From Chryseobacterium sediminis (GTDB lineage: Bacteria; Bacteroidota; Bacteroidia; Flavobacteriales; Weeksellaceae): a DNA stretch of 64,000 bases. Positions 35,095-44,841 of the stretch are shown one piece after another. The stretch is taken from contig NZ_VUNZ01000001.1 in NCBI RefSeq assembly GCF_008386505.1, positions 2,225,937-2,289,936 of the forward strand, written 5' to 3'. Both the position numbers and the translations under genes were made by a program. How positions within the stretch are numbered: position 1 is the stretch's first letter; every line of letters starts with the position of its first letter. The notes below the pieces were generated by a model. It was not told the origin of the DNA. It was given only the letters and a program-made list of their open reading frames with translations, and did not search any database.

Positions 35095-36114
35095 ATGAGT
35101 ACCGAAACATTAGAAAAAGCTAAATCTGCAATTCCTGTCAGAGGATTTCTGGATATAAAAGATATAGCTATTCCTCAGGGAGAAGAGCTGGTAAAAGCAA
35201 TTCTTAAACTTAAAGAGGAGAAAAATGCTGTTATTCTTGCCCACTACTACCAGCCAGGAGAAATTCAGGATATCGCTGATTTCCTGGGGGATTCCTTACA
35301 GCTGGCAAGACAGGCAAAAGAAACGAATGCAGACATGATTGTATTCTGCGGTGTACATTTCATGGCGGAAGCAGCTAAAATTCTGAACCCAACTAAAAAA
35401 GTAGTTCTTCCTGATACCATGGCCGGATGCTCTCTGGCTGACGGTTGTTCCGGAGAAGGATTAAGAAAAATGCGTGAGCAGCACCCGAATGCTTTAATTG
35501 CAACTTACATCAACTGTAACGCAGAAACTAAAGCAGAAAGTGATATCATCGTAACCAGTTCAAATGCTGAAACCGTAATAGAAGCACTTCCGAAAGACAG
35601 ACCTATCATTTTCGCACCAGACAAAAACCTGGGAAGATATTTATCTAAGAAAACAGGCCGTGATATGATTCTTTGGGACGGAAGCTGTGTAGTACACGAA
35701 GCATTTTCAATGGAAAGAATTGCTCAGCAGTTAGCTGACAATCCGGATGCCAAGCTGATTGCACACCCTGAAAGTGAAGAAGCTGTTTTGAAATTGGCTC
35801 ACTTTATCGGTTCTACTTCTGCCCTACTGAACTATGTAGAAAAAGACGACTGTCAGAAATTCATCATTGCCACAGAAGAAGGAATTCTTCACGAAATGAG
35901 AAAACGCGCTCCTCACAAGGAACTGATTCCTGCATTGGTTTTTGATGAAAGCTGTAACTGCTCAGAATGTTTCTACATGAAACGTAATACAATGGAAAAA
36001 TTGTACTTATGTATGAAGTATGAACTTCCTGAAATTCTTATCGACGAAGAATTAAGATTAAGAGCATTGAAACCTATTGAAGCAATGCTTGATCTTTCAA
36101 AAAGCATAAAATAA
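35095..36114 (+). CDS. nadA: quinolinate synthase A
   Basis: 339-aa [4Fe-4S] enzyme that condenses iminoaspartate with dihydroxyacetone phosphate in NAD synthesis. Motifs: AVILAHYYQPGEIQDIADFLGDSLQLAR, then MIVFCGVHFMAEAAKIL with Cys85. GCSLADGC and the WDGSCVVHEAFS segment follow, and ESCNCSECFYM supplies the C-terminal Cys. These are the three positions expected for cluster ligands. nadB and nadC are not in the window. A strong terminator follows. Confidence 0.96.
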   Translation: MSTETLEKAKSAIPVRGFLDIKDIAIPQGEELVKAILKLKEEKNAVILAHYYQPGEIQDIADFLGDSLQLARQAKETNADMIVFCGVHFMAEAAKILNPTKKVVLPDTMAGCSLADGCSGEGLRKMREQHPNALIATYINCNAETKAESDIIVTSSNAETVIEALPKDRPIIFAPDKNLGRYLSKKTGRDMILWDGSCVVHEAFSMERIAQQLADNPDAKLIAHPESEEAVLKLAHFIGSTSALLNYVEKDDCQKFIIATEEGILHEMRKRAPHKELIPALVFDESCNCSECFYMKRNTMEKLYLCMKYELPEILIDEELRLRALKPIEAMLDLSKSIK

Positions 36115-36119
36115 ACAAA

Positions 36120-36164
36120 GAGGCTGTCTCTGAAAGAATTTACTTTTGAGACAGCCCTTTTTAT
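36120..36164. terminator. terminator between nadA and the small-peptide cluster
   Basis: GGCTGTCTC (36122-36130) pairs with GAGACAGCC (36148-36156), with an inner AAAG/CTTT pair and T5 on the plus strand. The peptide genes converge on it from the right. Confidence 0.85.
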
Positions 36165-36166
36165 TT

Positions 36167-36376
36167 TTAGTCAGCACCAATTGCAACAAAACAATCTGCA
36201 CTCACAACTACACACATCCTGCAATTCTCGGACAATGTCCAGTATGCCTCACATGATGGATCGCTGGAAGAGCCCGGTCCAAAAACCAAATGAGTAGGAC
36301 AGCCATCACATTTTGATACACCAGCCCCTTTCATCTGTTCCAAATCTCTTCTGTTCAGTTTCCTTAAATTTTTCAT
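36167..36376 (-). CDS. small Cys-rich peptide with double-glycine-type leader (peptide 1)
   Basis: 69 aa. The leader MKNLRKLNRRDLEQMKGA is close to the leaders of the next four genes and ends in GA, a GG-type processing site. The core has six Cys and shares a pattern with peptides 2 and 5. In peptides 1 and 2 the pattern is CxGCP, then FGxG, then C, then C-K/R-M-C, then V-x-V-S-x-D/E-C. No maturation enzyme, C39 peptidase or transporter is in the window. It is probably a bacteriocin-like or RiPP-like exported peptide, by leader type only. Confidence 0.7.
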   Translation of the reverse strand: MKNLRKLNRRDLEQMKGAGVSKCDGCPTHLVFGPGSSSDPSCEAYWTLSENCRMCVVVSADCFVAIGAD

Positions 36377-36392
36377 AAGATCAAATTATCTT

Positions 36393-36602
36393 TTAAGAAA
36401 CTCCTCCGTCCACACACTCTATACTCACTAAGACACACATCTTGCAATAATCAGGAAGTCCCTGATAAGCAGAACATGGATACTGATATTCAGGACCATC
36501 TCCAAAAGTAGCATGTTGTGGACATCCTGCACATCTTGAAGGACCTGCTGCTCCATTTAATTGTTCAAGTTCTTTTCTGTTTAATTTCTTCAGATTTTTC
36601 AT
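36393..36602 (-). CDS. small Cys-rich peptide with double-glycine-type leader (peptide 2)
   Basis: 69 aa from the ATG at 36602; a longer frame to 36692 overlaps peptide 3 and is rejected. Leader MKNLKKLNRKELEQLNGA. The core has six Cys and closely parallels peptide 1: CAGCP, FGDG, CSAY, CKMC and VLVSIEC. The gene ends 16 bp before peptide 1, so the pair is probably co-transcribed. Function unknown. Confidence 0.7.
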   Translation of the reverse strand: MKNLKKLNRKELEQLNGAAGPSRCAGCPQHATFGDGPEYQYPCSAYQGLPDYCKMCVLVSIECVDGGVS

Positions 36603-36670
36603 AATAGTTTTTAAATTAAATTTTGATTTATGTTTTACAACAAATTGATAGTCTTTTAAATAATATTTTT

Positions 36671-36868
36671 CTAGCCTTCCAGAACCATACAACTTCCCGG
36701 AATTGATGGATCATAGGGAAAAAGATAAAGACAAACTTTACGTCCTCTAAAATCTGTACACACCGCACATCCTTTTGGTCCGCAATCAAGATCAACAGCA
36801 CAGCTGTCTCCTACACCTCCAATAATAGCTCTTAAATTTTCTCTGTTTAATTTTTTTGAATTTTTCAT
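36671..36868 (-). CDS. small Cys-rich peptide with double-glycine leader (peptide 3)
   Basis: 65 aa. Leader MKNSKKLNRENLRAIIGG with a true GG site. The core differs from peptides 1, 2 and 5: six Cys in a SC...DCGPKGCAVC...VC...SC arrangement, with a charged middle (DFRGRK). It keeps the leader but has an unrelated core, as expected if one exporter handles diverse cargo. Confidence 0.7.
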   Translation of the reverse strand: MKNSKKLNRENLRAIIGGVGDSCAVDLDCGPKGCAVCTDFRGRKVCLYLFPYDPSIPGSCMVLEG

Positions 36869-36929
36869 GGTAGTTGAATTTTAAATTAAATTTTGATTTT
36901 TTTAATAGAACAATAGAAGTAGTAATCAG

Positions 36930-37097
36930 TTACAACATGGGTGCATAACAGGTTCCTCCAGGTTTTAGCCAGCATCCCCATCCGCCTTTACGGAAACATA
37001 CAAATTGCTCACCTCCGCAAGCTTCAATCTGAATATCAGTGAATCCACCGATAACACTTTTCTTTTCTTCGCGTGATAATTTCTTAATTGTTTTCAT
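36930..37097 (-). CDS. small peptide with double-glycine leader (peptide 4), short gene
   Basis: 55 aa, translated by hand on the minus strand from the ATG at 37097 to TAA at 36932-36930. The leader MKTIKKLSREEKKSVIGG ends in GG. The core FTDIQIEACGGEQFVCFRKG continues with GWGCW and GTCYAPML, giving four Cys and two Trp. It fits between peptides 3 and 5 with 61- and 57-bp gaps and has the same leader grammar, which supports it despite its size. Confidence 0.65.
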   Translation of the reverse strand: MKTIKKLSREEKKSVIGGFTDIQIEACGGEQFVCFRKGGWGCWLKPGGTCYAPML

Positions 37098-37154
37098 AGC
37101 GCTTAATTTAAATATTAGAAATAAAGAATATTCTTGCCTTTATGCTAGTTAAGA

Positions 37155-37346
37155 TCAGGGACGATCAAAGCATTCAATACTCACCAGTACTCTTCCTTTA
37201 CAACATTCTGGTAAAGCATGATAATCAGTACAGGATCTTGGTTCGCCTGGTCCGTATGGTCCGGCAGGACAATTTTCATAACAAGGACCTATCCCGCCGT
37301 TGACTGATTTTAAATCATTTCGATTGATTTTCTTTAAATTTTTCAT
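37155..37346 (-). CDS. small Cys-rich peptide with double-glycine leader (peptide 5)
   Basis: 63 aa from the ATG at 37346; an in-frame ATG at 37394 adds a hydrophobic stretch and is less likely given the other leaders. Leader MKNLKKINRNDLKSVNGG. The core has six Cys and the family pattern: CYENCP, YGPG, SCTDY, ECCKGR and VLVSIEC. It is the first gene of the cluster in the direction of transcription. Confidence 0.7.
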   Translation of the reverse strand: MKNLKKINRNDLKSVNGGIGPCYENCPAGPYGPGEPRSCTDYHALPECCKGRVLVSIECFDRP

Positions 37347-37372
37347 GTTTGTTTTGTTATTAGTTAATAGTA

Positions 37373-37403
37373 TAAATGTAACATTTTTAATCAATTACAC
37401 CAA
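37373..37403 (-). promoter_or_regulatory. possible promoter of the GG-peptide cluster
   Basis: On the minus strand, TTGG (37403-37400) lies 20 nt from TACATTTA (37380-37373), one mismatch from TAnnTTTG, upstream of peptide 5. Confidence 0.4.
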
Positions 37404-37446
37404 TTATATCTCCAAAAAAGGAAATATATTTTATTATGTTAAAAAC

Positions 37447-37476
37447 TTGGCTGTTTCAAAATAAGTTGTACATTTG
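37447..37476 (+). promoter_or_regulatory. promoter of the threonine operon
   Basis: TTG (37447-37449), 19 nt, then TACATTTG (37469-37476) is an ideal Bacteroidota promoter. The leader-peptide ATG follows at 37487. Confidence 0.8.
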
Positions 37477-37486
37477 TTCCGTTACA

Positions 37487-37588
37487 ATGAATTTATTAAG
37501 AAACATATCTGATATTTCTGCCCTGAAATCACCTATTTCAGGCATATCTTCTGTTTCTACATTCACAACTACAACAACTACCCCATAA
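37487..37588 (+). CDS. threonine-operon leader peptide (ThrL-like)
   Basis: 33-aa reading frame, translated by hand: MNLLRNISDISALK, then SPISGISSVS, then TFTTTTTTP and TAA. Seven of the last nine residues are Thr, six in a row, and four Ile precede them. This is the composition of an E. coli-type thr operon leader, where Thr and Ile codons sense the charged tRNA pool. It lies between a strong promoter and thrA, with a hairpin inside the frame and another straddling its stop codon. Start spacing (11 nt from the -7 box) fits a short 5' end. Confidence 0.75.
   Translation: MNLLRNISDISALKSPISGISSVSTFTTTTTTP
37511..37548 (+). promoter_or_regulatory. hairpin inside the thr leader frame (pause/anti-antiterminator candidate)
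   Basis: Stem CCTGAAAT (37522-37529) with ATTTCAGG (37535-37542), extended after a bulge by GATAT with ATATC. It lies before the Thr codons, like the first stem of classic attenuators. Confidence 0.6.
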
Positions 37589-37601
37589 CGGGGTAAATTT
37601 T
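37579..37601 (+). terminator. attenuator hairpin at the end of the thr leader frame
   Basis: TACCCC-ATAAC-GGGGTA contains the leader stop codon in its loop and is followed by AATTTT. A ribosome stalled on the Thr codons would cover the left arm and keep the hairpin open. A second perfect 8-bp hairpin (TACTCTTT with AAAGAGTA, 37624-37644) follows but has no T-run. Confidence 0.6.
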
Positions 37602-37680
37602 CACATATTATTTCCGGTACCTGTACTCTTTTTTCTAAAGAGTAATCACTTCGTTATATCCAACTTCAAATAAATAATTG

Positions 37681-40128
37681 ATGAAAGTTTTAAAATTCGG
37701 CGGAACATCAGTCGCCCATTCTCAGAATATCCTTCTGGTGGAAAAAATCATAAAAGATGAATCTTTAAAAAGCAAAATAGTTGTTATTGTATCAGCACTT
37801 CATGGTGTCACCGATCAATTGATCAGAGCAGCAGAATATGCTTCCGTGAAAGATGAGAAGTATATTCAGATTGTTCAGAATCTTGAAGAAAAACATATCA
37901 ATCTTGTCAAAGATCTGTTTCCAATCGCAGAACAAAGTTCATGGCTAAGCTTCGTGAAAAAACATTTCAACGATATCGAAGATCTTTACAACGGAATTGC
38001 TGTTCTTGGCGAGCTTACCGACAGAATAAAAGATAAAATTGCTTCTTATGGAGAATTTCTGTCATCAAAAATTATAGCTGCAAGACTTCAGCATGAAGGA
38101 TTAGACTGTATATGGATGAATTCGGCAGACCTGATCAGAACAGACAGTAATTTCACTAATGCAAAAGTAGATTTTCAATGCACAGAAAATAATATCGTTA
38201 ATTTTCTGAATGAAAATAAGAATCATATCATCGTAGGTCCGGGTTTTGTCGCTCATGACGAAAAAAATAATGCAACAACATTAGGACGAGGAGGCTCAGA
38301 TTACACGGCTTCCATTATGGCAGCTTCTATTCATGCAGAAGAACTTCAGATCTGGACTGATGTAAGCGGAATGATGACTGCCGATCCACGTTTGGCTTCC
38401 AATGCGAAACCTATTTCAGAGATATCTTATCATGAAGCAATGGAATTATCACATTTCGGGGCAAAAGTGCTTTATCCACCTTCCATCCAGCCTGTCATGG
38501 TAAAAAATATAAACCTGATCATCAAGAATACTTTTGATCCGGATGCACAGGGAACTTTAATTTCTCATCAGTTGAAATCTTCAGGAAATGAAAAGCAGAT
38601 TGCGGTGGGAATTTCAAATATGAACCATATTGCGCTACTCACACTGGAAGGCAGCGGAATGGTAGGAATACCGGGTATTTCAGCAAAACTGTTCCAATGC
38701 TTAAGTCATGAAAAAATCAACGTAATCCTTATTACACAGGGATCTTCAGAACATTCTATCACAATTGCAATTGAAGAAAAAGAGGCTTTACATGCTGAGC
38801 ATGCTATCAATTCTTCTTTTGCGGATGATATCAATCTGGAAAGAGTCTATGCAGTAAAAATTGAAACAGGACTTTCCATTGTAGCCTTAGTTGGTGAAAG
38901 TATGAAAAGCAGAAGCGGTGTAAGTGCCAAAATGTTTGGGTGCCTGGGAAATAACGGAATCAATATAAGAGCAATTGCGCAGGGATCTTCTGAAAGAAAT
39001 ATCAGCATTGTTATTTCAGAAAAAGACAGTAAAAAAGCAGTGAATGTACTTCATGAAGAATTTTTTGAATCTGAAATTAAACAAATACACCTCTATATCT
39101 GCGGAACTGGAAATGTAGGTTCAAAACTGATTCGGCAGATCTATGACCAGAATGCATTTCTAAGAGAAAACTTTTTAATCAACCTGAGAATTGCAGGAAT
39201 TACCAACAGCCGCCATATGATATTTTCAGACAAAGGAATATCACAGGAAGACTACCTTTTCTGGGATCAACAGGGAGAAAAGGCTTCTGCCAGGGAATTT
39301 GCTGAAGAAATCATCCGTCGGAACTTAAGAAATTCTGTTTTTGTGGATGTAACTGCAAGTCCGGACGTACCTGAAATTTATGAAAGCTTATTAAAAAGAA
39401 GCGTGAATATAGTGGCTTGTAATAAAATTGCAGCTTCCTCAGATTTTAAAAAATATAAAACTTTAAAAAATACAGCAAGAAATCACAACTGTAATTTTTA
39501 TTTTGAAACCAATGTAGGAGCAGGACTTCCGGTAATAGGAACCATCAACGACCTGATTAAAAGCGGAGACCAGATCCAGTCTATTCAGGCGGTATTGAGC
39601 GGCACCTTAAATTTTGTATTTAATCATTATGACGGAAGCAGAACATTTTCTGAAGTTGTAGCCCAAGCCCAGCAGGAAGGCTATACAGAACCCGATCCAA
39701 GACTCGATTTGTCGGGAACTGATGTAGCAAGAAAAATATTAATCCTGGCAAGAGAGGCCGGATATCCGCTTCAGTTTGATGAAATTGAGAATATAAGCTT
39801 TCTTCCTGAAGAATGTATGCAGGGAAGCGTTGCTGACTTTTATGAAAAACTTACAGCATATGAAGAGCATTTTAAAAATTTATTGAATAATGCTAAAAAA
39901 GAAGGCAAAATTTTAAAATATGTCGCAGAATTTGAAGACGGAAAAGCAAAAGTAGGTTTACAGCATATCGCTCCAGACAGTGATCTGTTTCATCTTTATG
40001 GCAAAGACAATATTGTCATTTTTAAAACCCTCAGATATTCCGAACAGCCTTTGGTCGTAAAAGGAGCCGGGGCCGGAGCTGATGTAACAGCAAGCGGAGT
40101 TTTTGCAGATATTATTCGTTCCATTTAA
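37681..40128 (+). CDS. thrA: bifunctional aspartate kinase / homoserine dehydrogenase I
   Basis: 815 aa from the ATG at 37681 (MKVLKFGGTSVAHS). The aspartokinase domain (about 1-300) has KFGGTSV, GRGGSDYTASIMAA and ELQIWTDVSGMMTADPR. Two ACT regulatory domains follow (about 310-465: GMVGIPGISAKLFQCL and SRSGVSAKMFGCLGNNGINIRAIAQGSSERNIS-like segments). The homoserine dehydrogenase domain begins LYICGTGNVGSKLIRQIYD (about 475) and has NVGAGLPVIGTINDLIKSGD and SGTLNFVFN. It catalyses the first and third steps from aspartate to threonine. Expression is predicted to be attenuated by the leader upstream; ACT domains suggest threonine feedback. Confidence 0.96.
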   Translation: MKVLKFGGTSVAHSQNILLVEKIIKDESLKSKIVVIVSALHGVTDQLIRAAEYASVKDEKYIQIVQNLEEKHINLVKDLFPIAEQSSWLSFVKKHFNDIEDLYNGIAVLGELTDRIKDKIASYGEFLSSKIIAARLQHEGLDCIWMNSADLIRTDSNFTNAKVDFQCTENNIVNFLNENKNHIIVGPGFVAHDEKNNATTLGRGGSDYTASIMAASIHAEELQIWTDVSGMMTADPRLASNAKPISEISYHEAMELSHFGAKVLYPPSIQPVMVKNINLIIKNTFDPDAQGTLISHQLKSSGNEKQIAVGISNMNHIALLTLEGSGMVGIPGISAKLFQCLSHEKINVILITQGSSEHSITIAIEEKEALHAEHAINSSFADDINLERVYAVKIETGLSIVALVGESMKSRSGVSAKMFGCLGNNGINIRAIAQGSSERNISIVISEKDSKKAVNVLHEEFFESEIKQIHLYICGTGNVGSKLIRQIYDQNAFLRENFLINLRIAGITNSRHMIFSDKGISQEDYLFWDQQGEKASAREFAEEIIRRNLRNSVFVDVTASPDVPEIYESLLKRSVNIVACNKIAASSDFKKYKTLKNTARNHNCNFYFETNVGAGLPVIGTINDLIKSGDQIQSIQAVLSGTLNFVFNHYDGSRTFSEVVAQAQQEGYTEPDPRLDLSGTDVARKILILAREAGYPLQFDEIENISFLPEECMQGSVADFYEKLTAYEEHFKNLLNNAKKEGKILKYVAEFEDGKAKVGLQHIAPDSDLFHLYGKDNIVIFKTLRYSEQPLVVKGAGAGADVTASGVFADIIRSI

Positions 40129-44767: not shown

Positions 44768-44838
44768 GGTACTTTGGCCGAGCGGCTAGGCAGTGGTCTG
44801 CAACACCATCTACAGCGGTTCGAATCCGCTAGGTACCT
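44768..44838 (+). tRNA. tRNA-Cys (anticodon GCA)
   Basis: The acceptor GGTACTT pairs with AGGTACC. The anticodon loop CTGCAAC has a 5-bp stem GTGGT/ACCAT. The T arm is AGCGG-TTCGAAT-CCGCT. The discriminator base is T, as is usual for tRNA-Cys. CCA is not encoded. Confidence 0.95.
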
Positions 44839-44841
44839 CAG

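Follow-up and report, generated by a model that had tools for sequence, protein, structure and literature searches.

Class IIa (pediocin-like) bacteriocins and class II microcins are made with a double-glycine leader and leave the cell through a C39 exporter, and the class IIa peptides carry disulfides. The bacteroidetocins, class II bacteriocins of Bacteroidetes, are encoded in a four-gene region comprising a five-transmembrane protein, the peptide, a thiol oxidoreductase and a C39 ATP-binding cassette (ABC) transporter, in which the accessible text of the source reports no obvious immunity protein (PMC6671954). The 64,000-nucleotide stretch of Chryseobacterium sediminis DNA analysed here (the window) carries on its minus strand, at 36167-37346, five consecutive open reading frames (ORFs) encoding precursors of 55-69 amino acids (aa), whose leader already bears the name NF047798 leader_Chryseo, 'bacteriocin-like protein', in NCBIfam. 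A likely route for these products can be proposed from sequence, co-occurrence and Cys parity, on which the making, cleavage and export, and oxidation steps are based. Each precursor would be synthesised in the cytoplasm behind an 18-aa double-glycine leader. A transporter of the peptidase-containing ABC transporter (PCAT) type, encoded on contig C10, would recognise this leader through its C39 peptidase domain and cut after GG or GA; the core would be exported by the same transporter with its HlyD partner; and an adjoining VKOR-DsbA fusion would oxidise the core cysteines to disulfides, giving mature peptides of 37-51 aa that would act outside the cell. This one machine would serve about 47 precursors dispersed over the genome. 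More tentatively, with somewhat less than even confidence, we propose that Chryseobacterium species hold a library of the prochlorosin kind, dispersed over the genome and numbering up to about 56 disulfide peptides in each, most of them unrelated to one another and served by one exporter-protease and one VKOR-DsbA that are lost together with them; a part of it, including the exporter's own peptide, would form a DUF805b regulon, and its members would not be classical cationic bacteriocins.

All five precursors of the window start with MK[NT]xxK[LI]xR, and the leader is 18 aa long in each, ending, from peptide 1 to peptide 5, in GA, GA, GG, GG and GG. An earlier reading of the window by a model that saw only its letters and ORFs (the original prediction) had announced five small Cys-rich peptides at this place, which the five ORFs bore out, and had described the peptides as ending in GG or GA, which is right for the leaders and wrong for the peptides. 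The NF047798 cut-off (23.5 bits, whole protein) was passed by peptides 2-5 and missed by peptide 1; peptide 2 was scored with one extra upstream codon, with no visible effect. Searched against Pfam, the five peptides gave only one sub-threshold match, of Bacteriocin_IIc to peptide 3 (18.4 vs 27.1 bits). The six-Cys core attributed to peptides 1, 2 and 5 was recovered in an alignment of 60 rows, five of its Cys columns being Cys in all of them (60/60) and the sixth Cys falling in either of two columns that are four positions apart (in 25 and 35 rows); the cores of peptides 1 and 2 are 42% identical. Peptide 3 has, as had been stated, a different six-Cys core. The description of peptide 4 as four-Cys and Trp-rich was correct for the cysteines and generous for the tryptophans, which number 2 among 37 core residues. 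No C39 domain was found in the window, and the ten neighbouring proteins, all housekeeping or of families of no assigned role in Pfam, included no C39 exporter, membrane protein, thiol oxidoreductase or core-modifying enzyme; no immunity gene was recognised among them by Pfam either (no systematic search for one was made), in agreement with what the original prediction had said of the window.

A leader search of the whole genome (4.9 Mb, 12 contigs, completeness 99.99), one of the checks that had been proposed, returned 47 matches at E<=1, 30 of them above the cut-off, distributed over six contigs; of 14 control genomes, two had a match at E<=1 and none had one above the cut-off. All 47 matches proved to be short ORFs in which the leader lies close to the N-terminus, the weakest of them being candidates only. 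Their leaders are alike (median pair identity 0.55) and their cores unlike (0.19 vs 0.17 when shuffled), the latter falling into 37 families under an ad hoc score threshold. Across 118 congeneric genomes (E<=0.01) the number of matches ranged from 0 to at least 56 per genome, with at least one in 109 genomes and matches above the cut-off in 108, the counts in leader-rich genomes being possible undercounts. At the level of the family, leader matches (E<=0.001) were detected in 33/148 genomes, 19 of the 33 belonging to the genus, and at the level of the order (E<=1e-4) in 30/296, 27 of the 30 belonging to the genus; the 51 named loci with a peptide 4 core were all titled Chryseobacterium. On contig C6, a tandem of five leader peptides was observed (L043, about 75299-76308), four of them from one core family. 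This tandem and locus L044 show the knottin-like spacing C..C..CC..C..C, which fits seven of the precursors of the genome, and these may be regarded, by their spacing, as bacterial knottin candidates.

The original prediction had placed the missing machinery elsewhere in the genome and had asked for a search for a GG-processing transporter, which yielded three C39-domain transporters, one of them accompanied, in its gene row, by a peptide with a similar leader. In that row, on contig C10, a VKOR-DsbA fusion of 504 aa with VKOR and DsbA-like thioredoxin domains (PF07884 + PF13462), a C39-ABC transporter, a leader peptide and an HlyD adaptor follow each other on the same strand, and in at least 32 genomes no more than 500 bp separate a leader gene from a VKOR or C39 gene. 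PCAT peptidase domains bind leader positions -4, -7, -12 and -15 according to the accessible text of PMC7018657, where it is also stated that substrate-exporter pairing is not set by these residues alone. In the 47 precursors, L, I, V, M or F occupies position -4 in 45, -7 in 36, -12 in 45 and -15 in 36, and G occupies position -2 in 43, double-glycine substrates having G followed by G, A or S ahead of the cut. The C39 transporters of two further loci were rejected as exporters of the window family, their own peptides having unlike leaders, longer than and different from those of the window family. At L035 (6406-6847), a separate peptide-modification locus, two alike peptides of 58-59 aa with GG-type leaders accompany a radical-SAM/SPASM protein and a C39 transporter, and at L036 (10261-17111) a lanthipeptide-like locus encodes Lant_dehydr and LANC_like proteins and two alike precursors, with a C39 transporter nearby. 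The idea that any C39-like transporter would suffice was tentatively disfavoured: the best match to the C10 exporter has an E reported as 0 in 110/118 congeneric genomes, and four leader-free genomes (G011, G060, G104 and G115) have a best match to it, putatively C39-like, at E 6.5e-203 to 1.1e-206.

Leader, oxidase and exporter occur together across the 118 congeneric genomes. VKOR-DsbA (E<=1e-8) was absent from seven, none of which had leader matches (0/7), and present in 111, of which 109 had them (Fisher 6.8e-10); the close exporter (best E below 1e-210) was missing from eight, namely the seven VKOR-less genomes and G063 (Fisher 5.4e-9). In the family outside the genus (128 genomes), the leader was detected in 14 genomes, VKOR in 18 (fragments included) and both in 12 (Fisher 6.5e-11). 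An rpoB tree built from 29 chosen genomes required six changes to account for the absence of the leader, five of them forced by well-supported branches, and in five independent pairs VKOR changed the same way in four to five and the opposite way in none. Several points weigh against the proposed machine. Its pairing with the leader family is drawn by us from adjacency and co-occurrence, and the peptide encoded beside the C10 exporter falls just short of the leader cut-off, at 21.6 bits. The Fisher tests ignore kinship, related genomes not being independent, and the sign test on the five pairs gave a median p of 0.125, 0.05 being out of reach at n = 5. Individual genomes also depart from the pattern: G089 (94% complete, 320 contigs) keeps exporter and VKOR with no leader match; G053 keeps the exporter and lacks leader matches, its sole VKOR match being a paralog of 25% identity; G063 (75% complete) has 35 leader matches, but it matches the exporter weakly (8.4e-139) and stops interrupt its VKOR gene; and in the family, G133 and G217 have one marginal leader match each, without VKOR.

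The distribution of cysteines was then compared with the predicted oxidation step. Among the 47 precursors, the leaders contain no Cys in 882 residues and the cores 259 in 1858; the Cys number is even in 46/47 precursors and in 36/37 core families (p 2.8e-10), as well as in 190/191 distinct peptides from the 51 named loci, taken with no Cys filter, many of these being orthologs and thus not independent. Even counts, none in the leader, and a Cys that shifts between two columns are what complete disulfide pairing predicts, and the Cys pattern together with the co-occurring VKOR-DsbA oxidase is consistent with disulfides. These counts bear on the possibility that the peptides are true ribosomally synthesised and post-translationally modified peptides (RiPPs), their cores being modified, with thioethers or otherwise, by enzymes encoded elsewhere. 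The lanthipeptide-like and radical-SAM/SPASM loci with C39 transporters show that the genome has equipment of this kind, but the peptides of both loci have different leaders, no modifying enzyme is present in the C10 row or among the ten window neighbours, and the Cys parity and VKOR-DsbA co-occurrence suit disulfides better, so that we consider it improbable. The original prediction of a bacteriocin or RiPP family served by one exporter-protease thus stands for the common leader, the diverse cores and, probably, the single exporter, and is not supported for RiPPs in the narrow sense. Concerning the fold, for which knottins, defensins and other small disulfide folds came into question, the AlphaFold model of peptide 2 was fairly confident (predicted local distance difference test, pLDDT, 83.6; predicted template modelling score, pTM, 0.61), with no useful match in the Protein Data Bank (PDB; best E 7.7), and that of peptide 3, a short helix and a hairpin, was of middling confidence (pLDDT 75.5, pTM 0.51), with nothing significant among solved structures (best E 2.5, best Z 3.6). 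Profile searches of PDB sequences likewise yielded no credible match (best E 0.57 and 0.02).

The conservation of the locus was assessed in 40 congeneric genomes, each represented by a 4.3-kb stretch that takes in about 4 kb upstream of thrA; the genomes were drawn, mostly as those nearest to the genome of the window, from the 76/118 with a thrA match. At least one leader-peptide gene was present in 39/40 stretches, with none in G026 and a range of 0-7, as counted by a script demanding two Cys. The 157 peptides from 41 genomes, the five of the window included, were assigned to peptide 1 (9 genomes), peptide 2 type A (17), peptide 2 type B (8), peptide 3 (16), peptide 4 (35), peptide 5 (35) and two additional groups (11 and 5), with 16 peptides left ungrouped; types A and B of peptide 2 never occurred in the same stretch. 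Within the eight groups, pairwise dN/dS (Nei-Gojobori) ranged from 0.12 to 0.18 in the leaders and from 0.08 to 0.16 in the cores, the core of peptide 4 having 0.08; these ratios are rough, as synonymous differences come close to saturation (pS up to 0.66). Ortholog cores are thus constrained about as strongly as leaders, and diversity is to be found among paralogs and in the gain or loss of genes; the leader, whose random divergence among strains had been named as a refuting outcome, is conserved across species and not drifting. Chance ORFs were ruled out by the low dN/dS and the match to the NF047798 family. The view that these genes are relics, a decaying leader family whose peptides are no longer exported, could appeal to the variation from 0 to at least 56 leader matches per genome and to G087, which keeps only parts of the system (one leader match, an exporter match from which residues 1-96 are missing, and a VKOR match confined to residues 2-376). 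It is, however, very hard to reconcile with a dN/dS of 0.08-0.18 over leaders and cores and with the uninterrupted exporter gene row of the window's genome, and we give it almost no weight.

Upstream regions of the 47 precursor genes were screened for shared elements. The motif TAnnTTTG occurs in 14/47 (300 letter shuffles: mean 4.8, maximum 10), and together with a TTG box in 3/47 vs 0.6 in shuffles; the excess of TAnnTTTG makes some ordinary promoters likely, with no special shared one. The core of the Rfam RF02914 DUF805b RNA stands 21-25 nt before the start codon of 8/47 leader genes (L034, L003, L010, L018, L021, L025, L030 and L001), including the exporter-adjacent peptide, five of these sites reaching the Rfam gathering score and three lying just under it. 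The pattern CCGAAAANCN{2,9}GAGTAGG has 12 sites in the genome (reversed control, 0), and 8/12 belong to leader genes, a share that is partly by construction because the pattern was drawn from these upstream regions; the remaining four precede proteins of 197 aa and 336 aa, a protein that we take, from a motif, to be caspase-like, and a small Sec-type protein with four Cys. With the independently made Rfam model, 19 DUF805b sites were detected in the genome (E<=0.001), only some of which were placed relative to genes. Of 30 loci found with this model in the genus (L187-L216), 27 were resolved: a GG-leader peptide follows in 18 (13 recognised by script and five more by eye), a Sec-type small Cys protein in two and another protein in seven. 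DUF805b and leader counts are correlated over the 118 genomes (Spearman 0.82, kinship uncorrected), with a median DUF805b count of 2 in the nine leader-free genomes vs 11 in the others. Three Sec-type small proteins (84-89 aa) with four Cys, each preceded by a DUF805b RNA, were observed at L175, L207 and L209, and such placements suggest RNA control of secreted Cys-rich products beyond the GG-leader group. In the window there is no DUF805b at the Rfam gathering score, and a relaxed search of 35900-37750 (E<=10) gave none either; nor does the core pattern occur in the window or in 91 related loci. DUF805b was rejected as a regulator of the window cluster, the element being missing at all five genes.

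By analogy with the bacteroidetocins, the likeliest single role outside the cell would be antagonism against related bacteria, to which we give a confidence just short of even; gene turnover, the mutually exclusive types of peptide 2 and the mechanism favour it. Charge, conservation and neighbourhood speak against a classical bacteriocin: the net core charge is -4, -3, -2, 0 and -2 in peptides 1-5, and over the 47 precursors 31 cores are acidic, nine neutral and seven positive; orthologs are conserved; and no immunity gene was recognised among the ten neighbours (no systematic search for one was made). Given these acidic cores, strong conservation and lack of a recognised immunity gene, the label 'bacteriocin' is not supported, or is at best putative, for the family. 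The same observations, with about 47 different peptides in a single genome, cores under purifying selection, knottin-like Cys spacing in seven cores elsewhere in the genome and DUF805b RNAs that also precede Sec-type small Cys proteins and other genes, would suit disulfide peptides secreted by the same C39/VKOR route that are not bacteriocins, such as extracellular protease inhibitors, signals or other binding scaffolds. This is a serious possibility, if one that we rate below even, as no target or known fold was found for the peptides, the gene content of the locus varies by species with exclusive types of peptide 2, which conflict fits better, and the mechanistically closest system makes toxins, as described in the available part of PMC6671954.

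The features of the cluster and its surroundings are listed in the table below. The gaps between the peptide genes are 16, 68, 61 and 57 bp, and a single transcript for the five genes is plausible, an idea weakened by two terminator-like sites on the minus strand inside peptide genes. In 36050-37750, four terminator-like sites were counted in all, vs 0.8 in shuffles, and five sigma-70-like sites, vs 7.2. The hairpin downstream of peptide 1 (-22 kcal/mol, z -5.8 for 36112-36170) is a terminator by inference and is absent from the terminator list of the consensus scan. The promoter of the cluster is presumed to lie between peptide 5 and thrA, where neither the consensus-site scan nor the upstream-motif search identified one. 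In the same interval, at 37487-37588, a short ORF upstream of thrA ending in SVSTFTTTTTTP resembles what we take to be a threonine-operon attenuator leader peptide, with no Rfam match at the gathering score. The only tRNA found in the window was a tRNA-Cys, at 44768-44839.

Table. Features of the leader-peptide cluster and its flanks (window positions).
Feature	Position	Strand	Description	Match
nadA, quinolinate synthase	35095..36114	+	flanking, outside the system	PF02445
hairpin	36118..36160	.	between convergent nadA and peptide 1; T-rich on both sides	
peptide 1	36167..36376	-	69 aa; GA leader; 51-aa six-Cys core	NF047798, 16.4 bits
peptide 2	36393..36602	-	69 aa; GA leader; 51-aa six-Cys core; type A	NF047798, 25.5 bits
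peptide 3	36671..36868	-	65 aa; GG leader; 47-aa six-Cys core, different pattern	NF047798, 24.3 bits
peptide 4	36930..37097	-	55 aa; GG leader; 37-aa four-Cys core	NF047798, 25.2 bits
peptide 5	37155..37346	-	63 aa; leader 37293-37346; 45-aa six-Cys core; first gene of the cluster	NF047798, 35.5 bits
upstream region	37347..37677	-	331 bp between peptide 5 and divergent thrA; presumed promoter site	
thrA, aspartokinase-homoserine dehydrogenase	37678..40128	+	flanking; synteny anchor	PF00696, PF00742

Two elements of this picture are already known, the name of the leader family and a 'bacteriocin' cluster predicted by antiSMASH in Chryseobacterium indologenes PgBE177, a strain antagonising Pseudomonas syringae; for the latter, the accessible text mentions a single predicted cluster and neither gives its sequence nor connects it with this leader family (PMC6256643). 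Among the matches listed in the open-licence literature there was no paper on this peptide set, nor any report of the genome-scale set, of an exporter and oxidase lost along with it, of the even Cys counts or of the association with the RNA. If the proposal is true, dozens of uncharacterised peptides could be tested at once through one shared machine, the leader could be used with the machine to display disulfide-rich peptides, double-glycine peptides would be organised here as a dispersed library and not as single gene clusters, and the orphan DUF805b RNA motif would gain concrete target genes, and hence a route to its function.

Compared with the class IIa bacteriocins and class II microcins, the window cores lack the YGNGVxC motif, are not cationic and have no recognised adjacent immunity gene. 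With the bacteroidetocins, the system has in common the double-glycine leader, the small Cys-rich core held to be disulfide-linked, the C39-ABC exporter, the thiol oxidoreductase, a membrane protein encoded in the gene region and, in the accessible text, the want of an obvious immunity gene (PMC6671954). The bacteroidetocin peptide gene adjoins its machine, whereas here many precursors are mostly remote from theirs; bacteroidetocin leaders have 15-16 aa, against 18 aa in all five peptides here; and the two characterised bacteroidetocin cores have 42 aa, four Cys and net charges of +2 and +6, against mostly six-Cys, acidic cores here (PMC6671954, as far as accessible). The bacteroidetocin gene arrangement is missing at the window and present for the C10 peptide. 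Judged from their sequences, the window peptides would work like the bacteroidetocin system, yet by leader length, gene adjacency and charge they are not bacteroidetocins. The NF047798 model spans the 18-position leader only, and its name implies no exporter, disulfides, scale or regulation; the DUF805b RNA (RF02914) precedes eight leader-peptide genes of the genome and not the five of the window. Prochlorosin precursor genes are scattered. In the prochlorosins, too, one enzyme serves many precursors (29), whose leaders are alike and whose cores differ, but the shared enzyme makes thioether rings (PMC12328550, accessible part), whereas in the system described here the shared components would be an exporter-protease and a disulfide oxidase.

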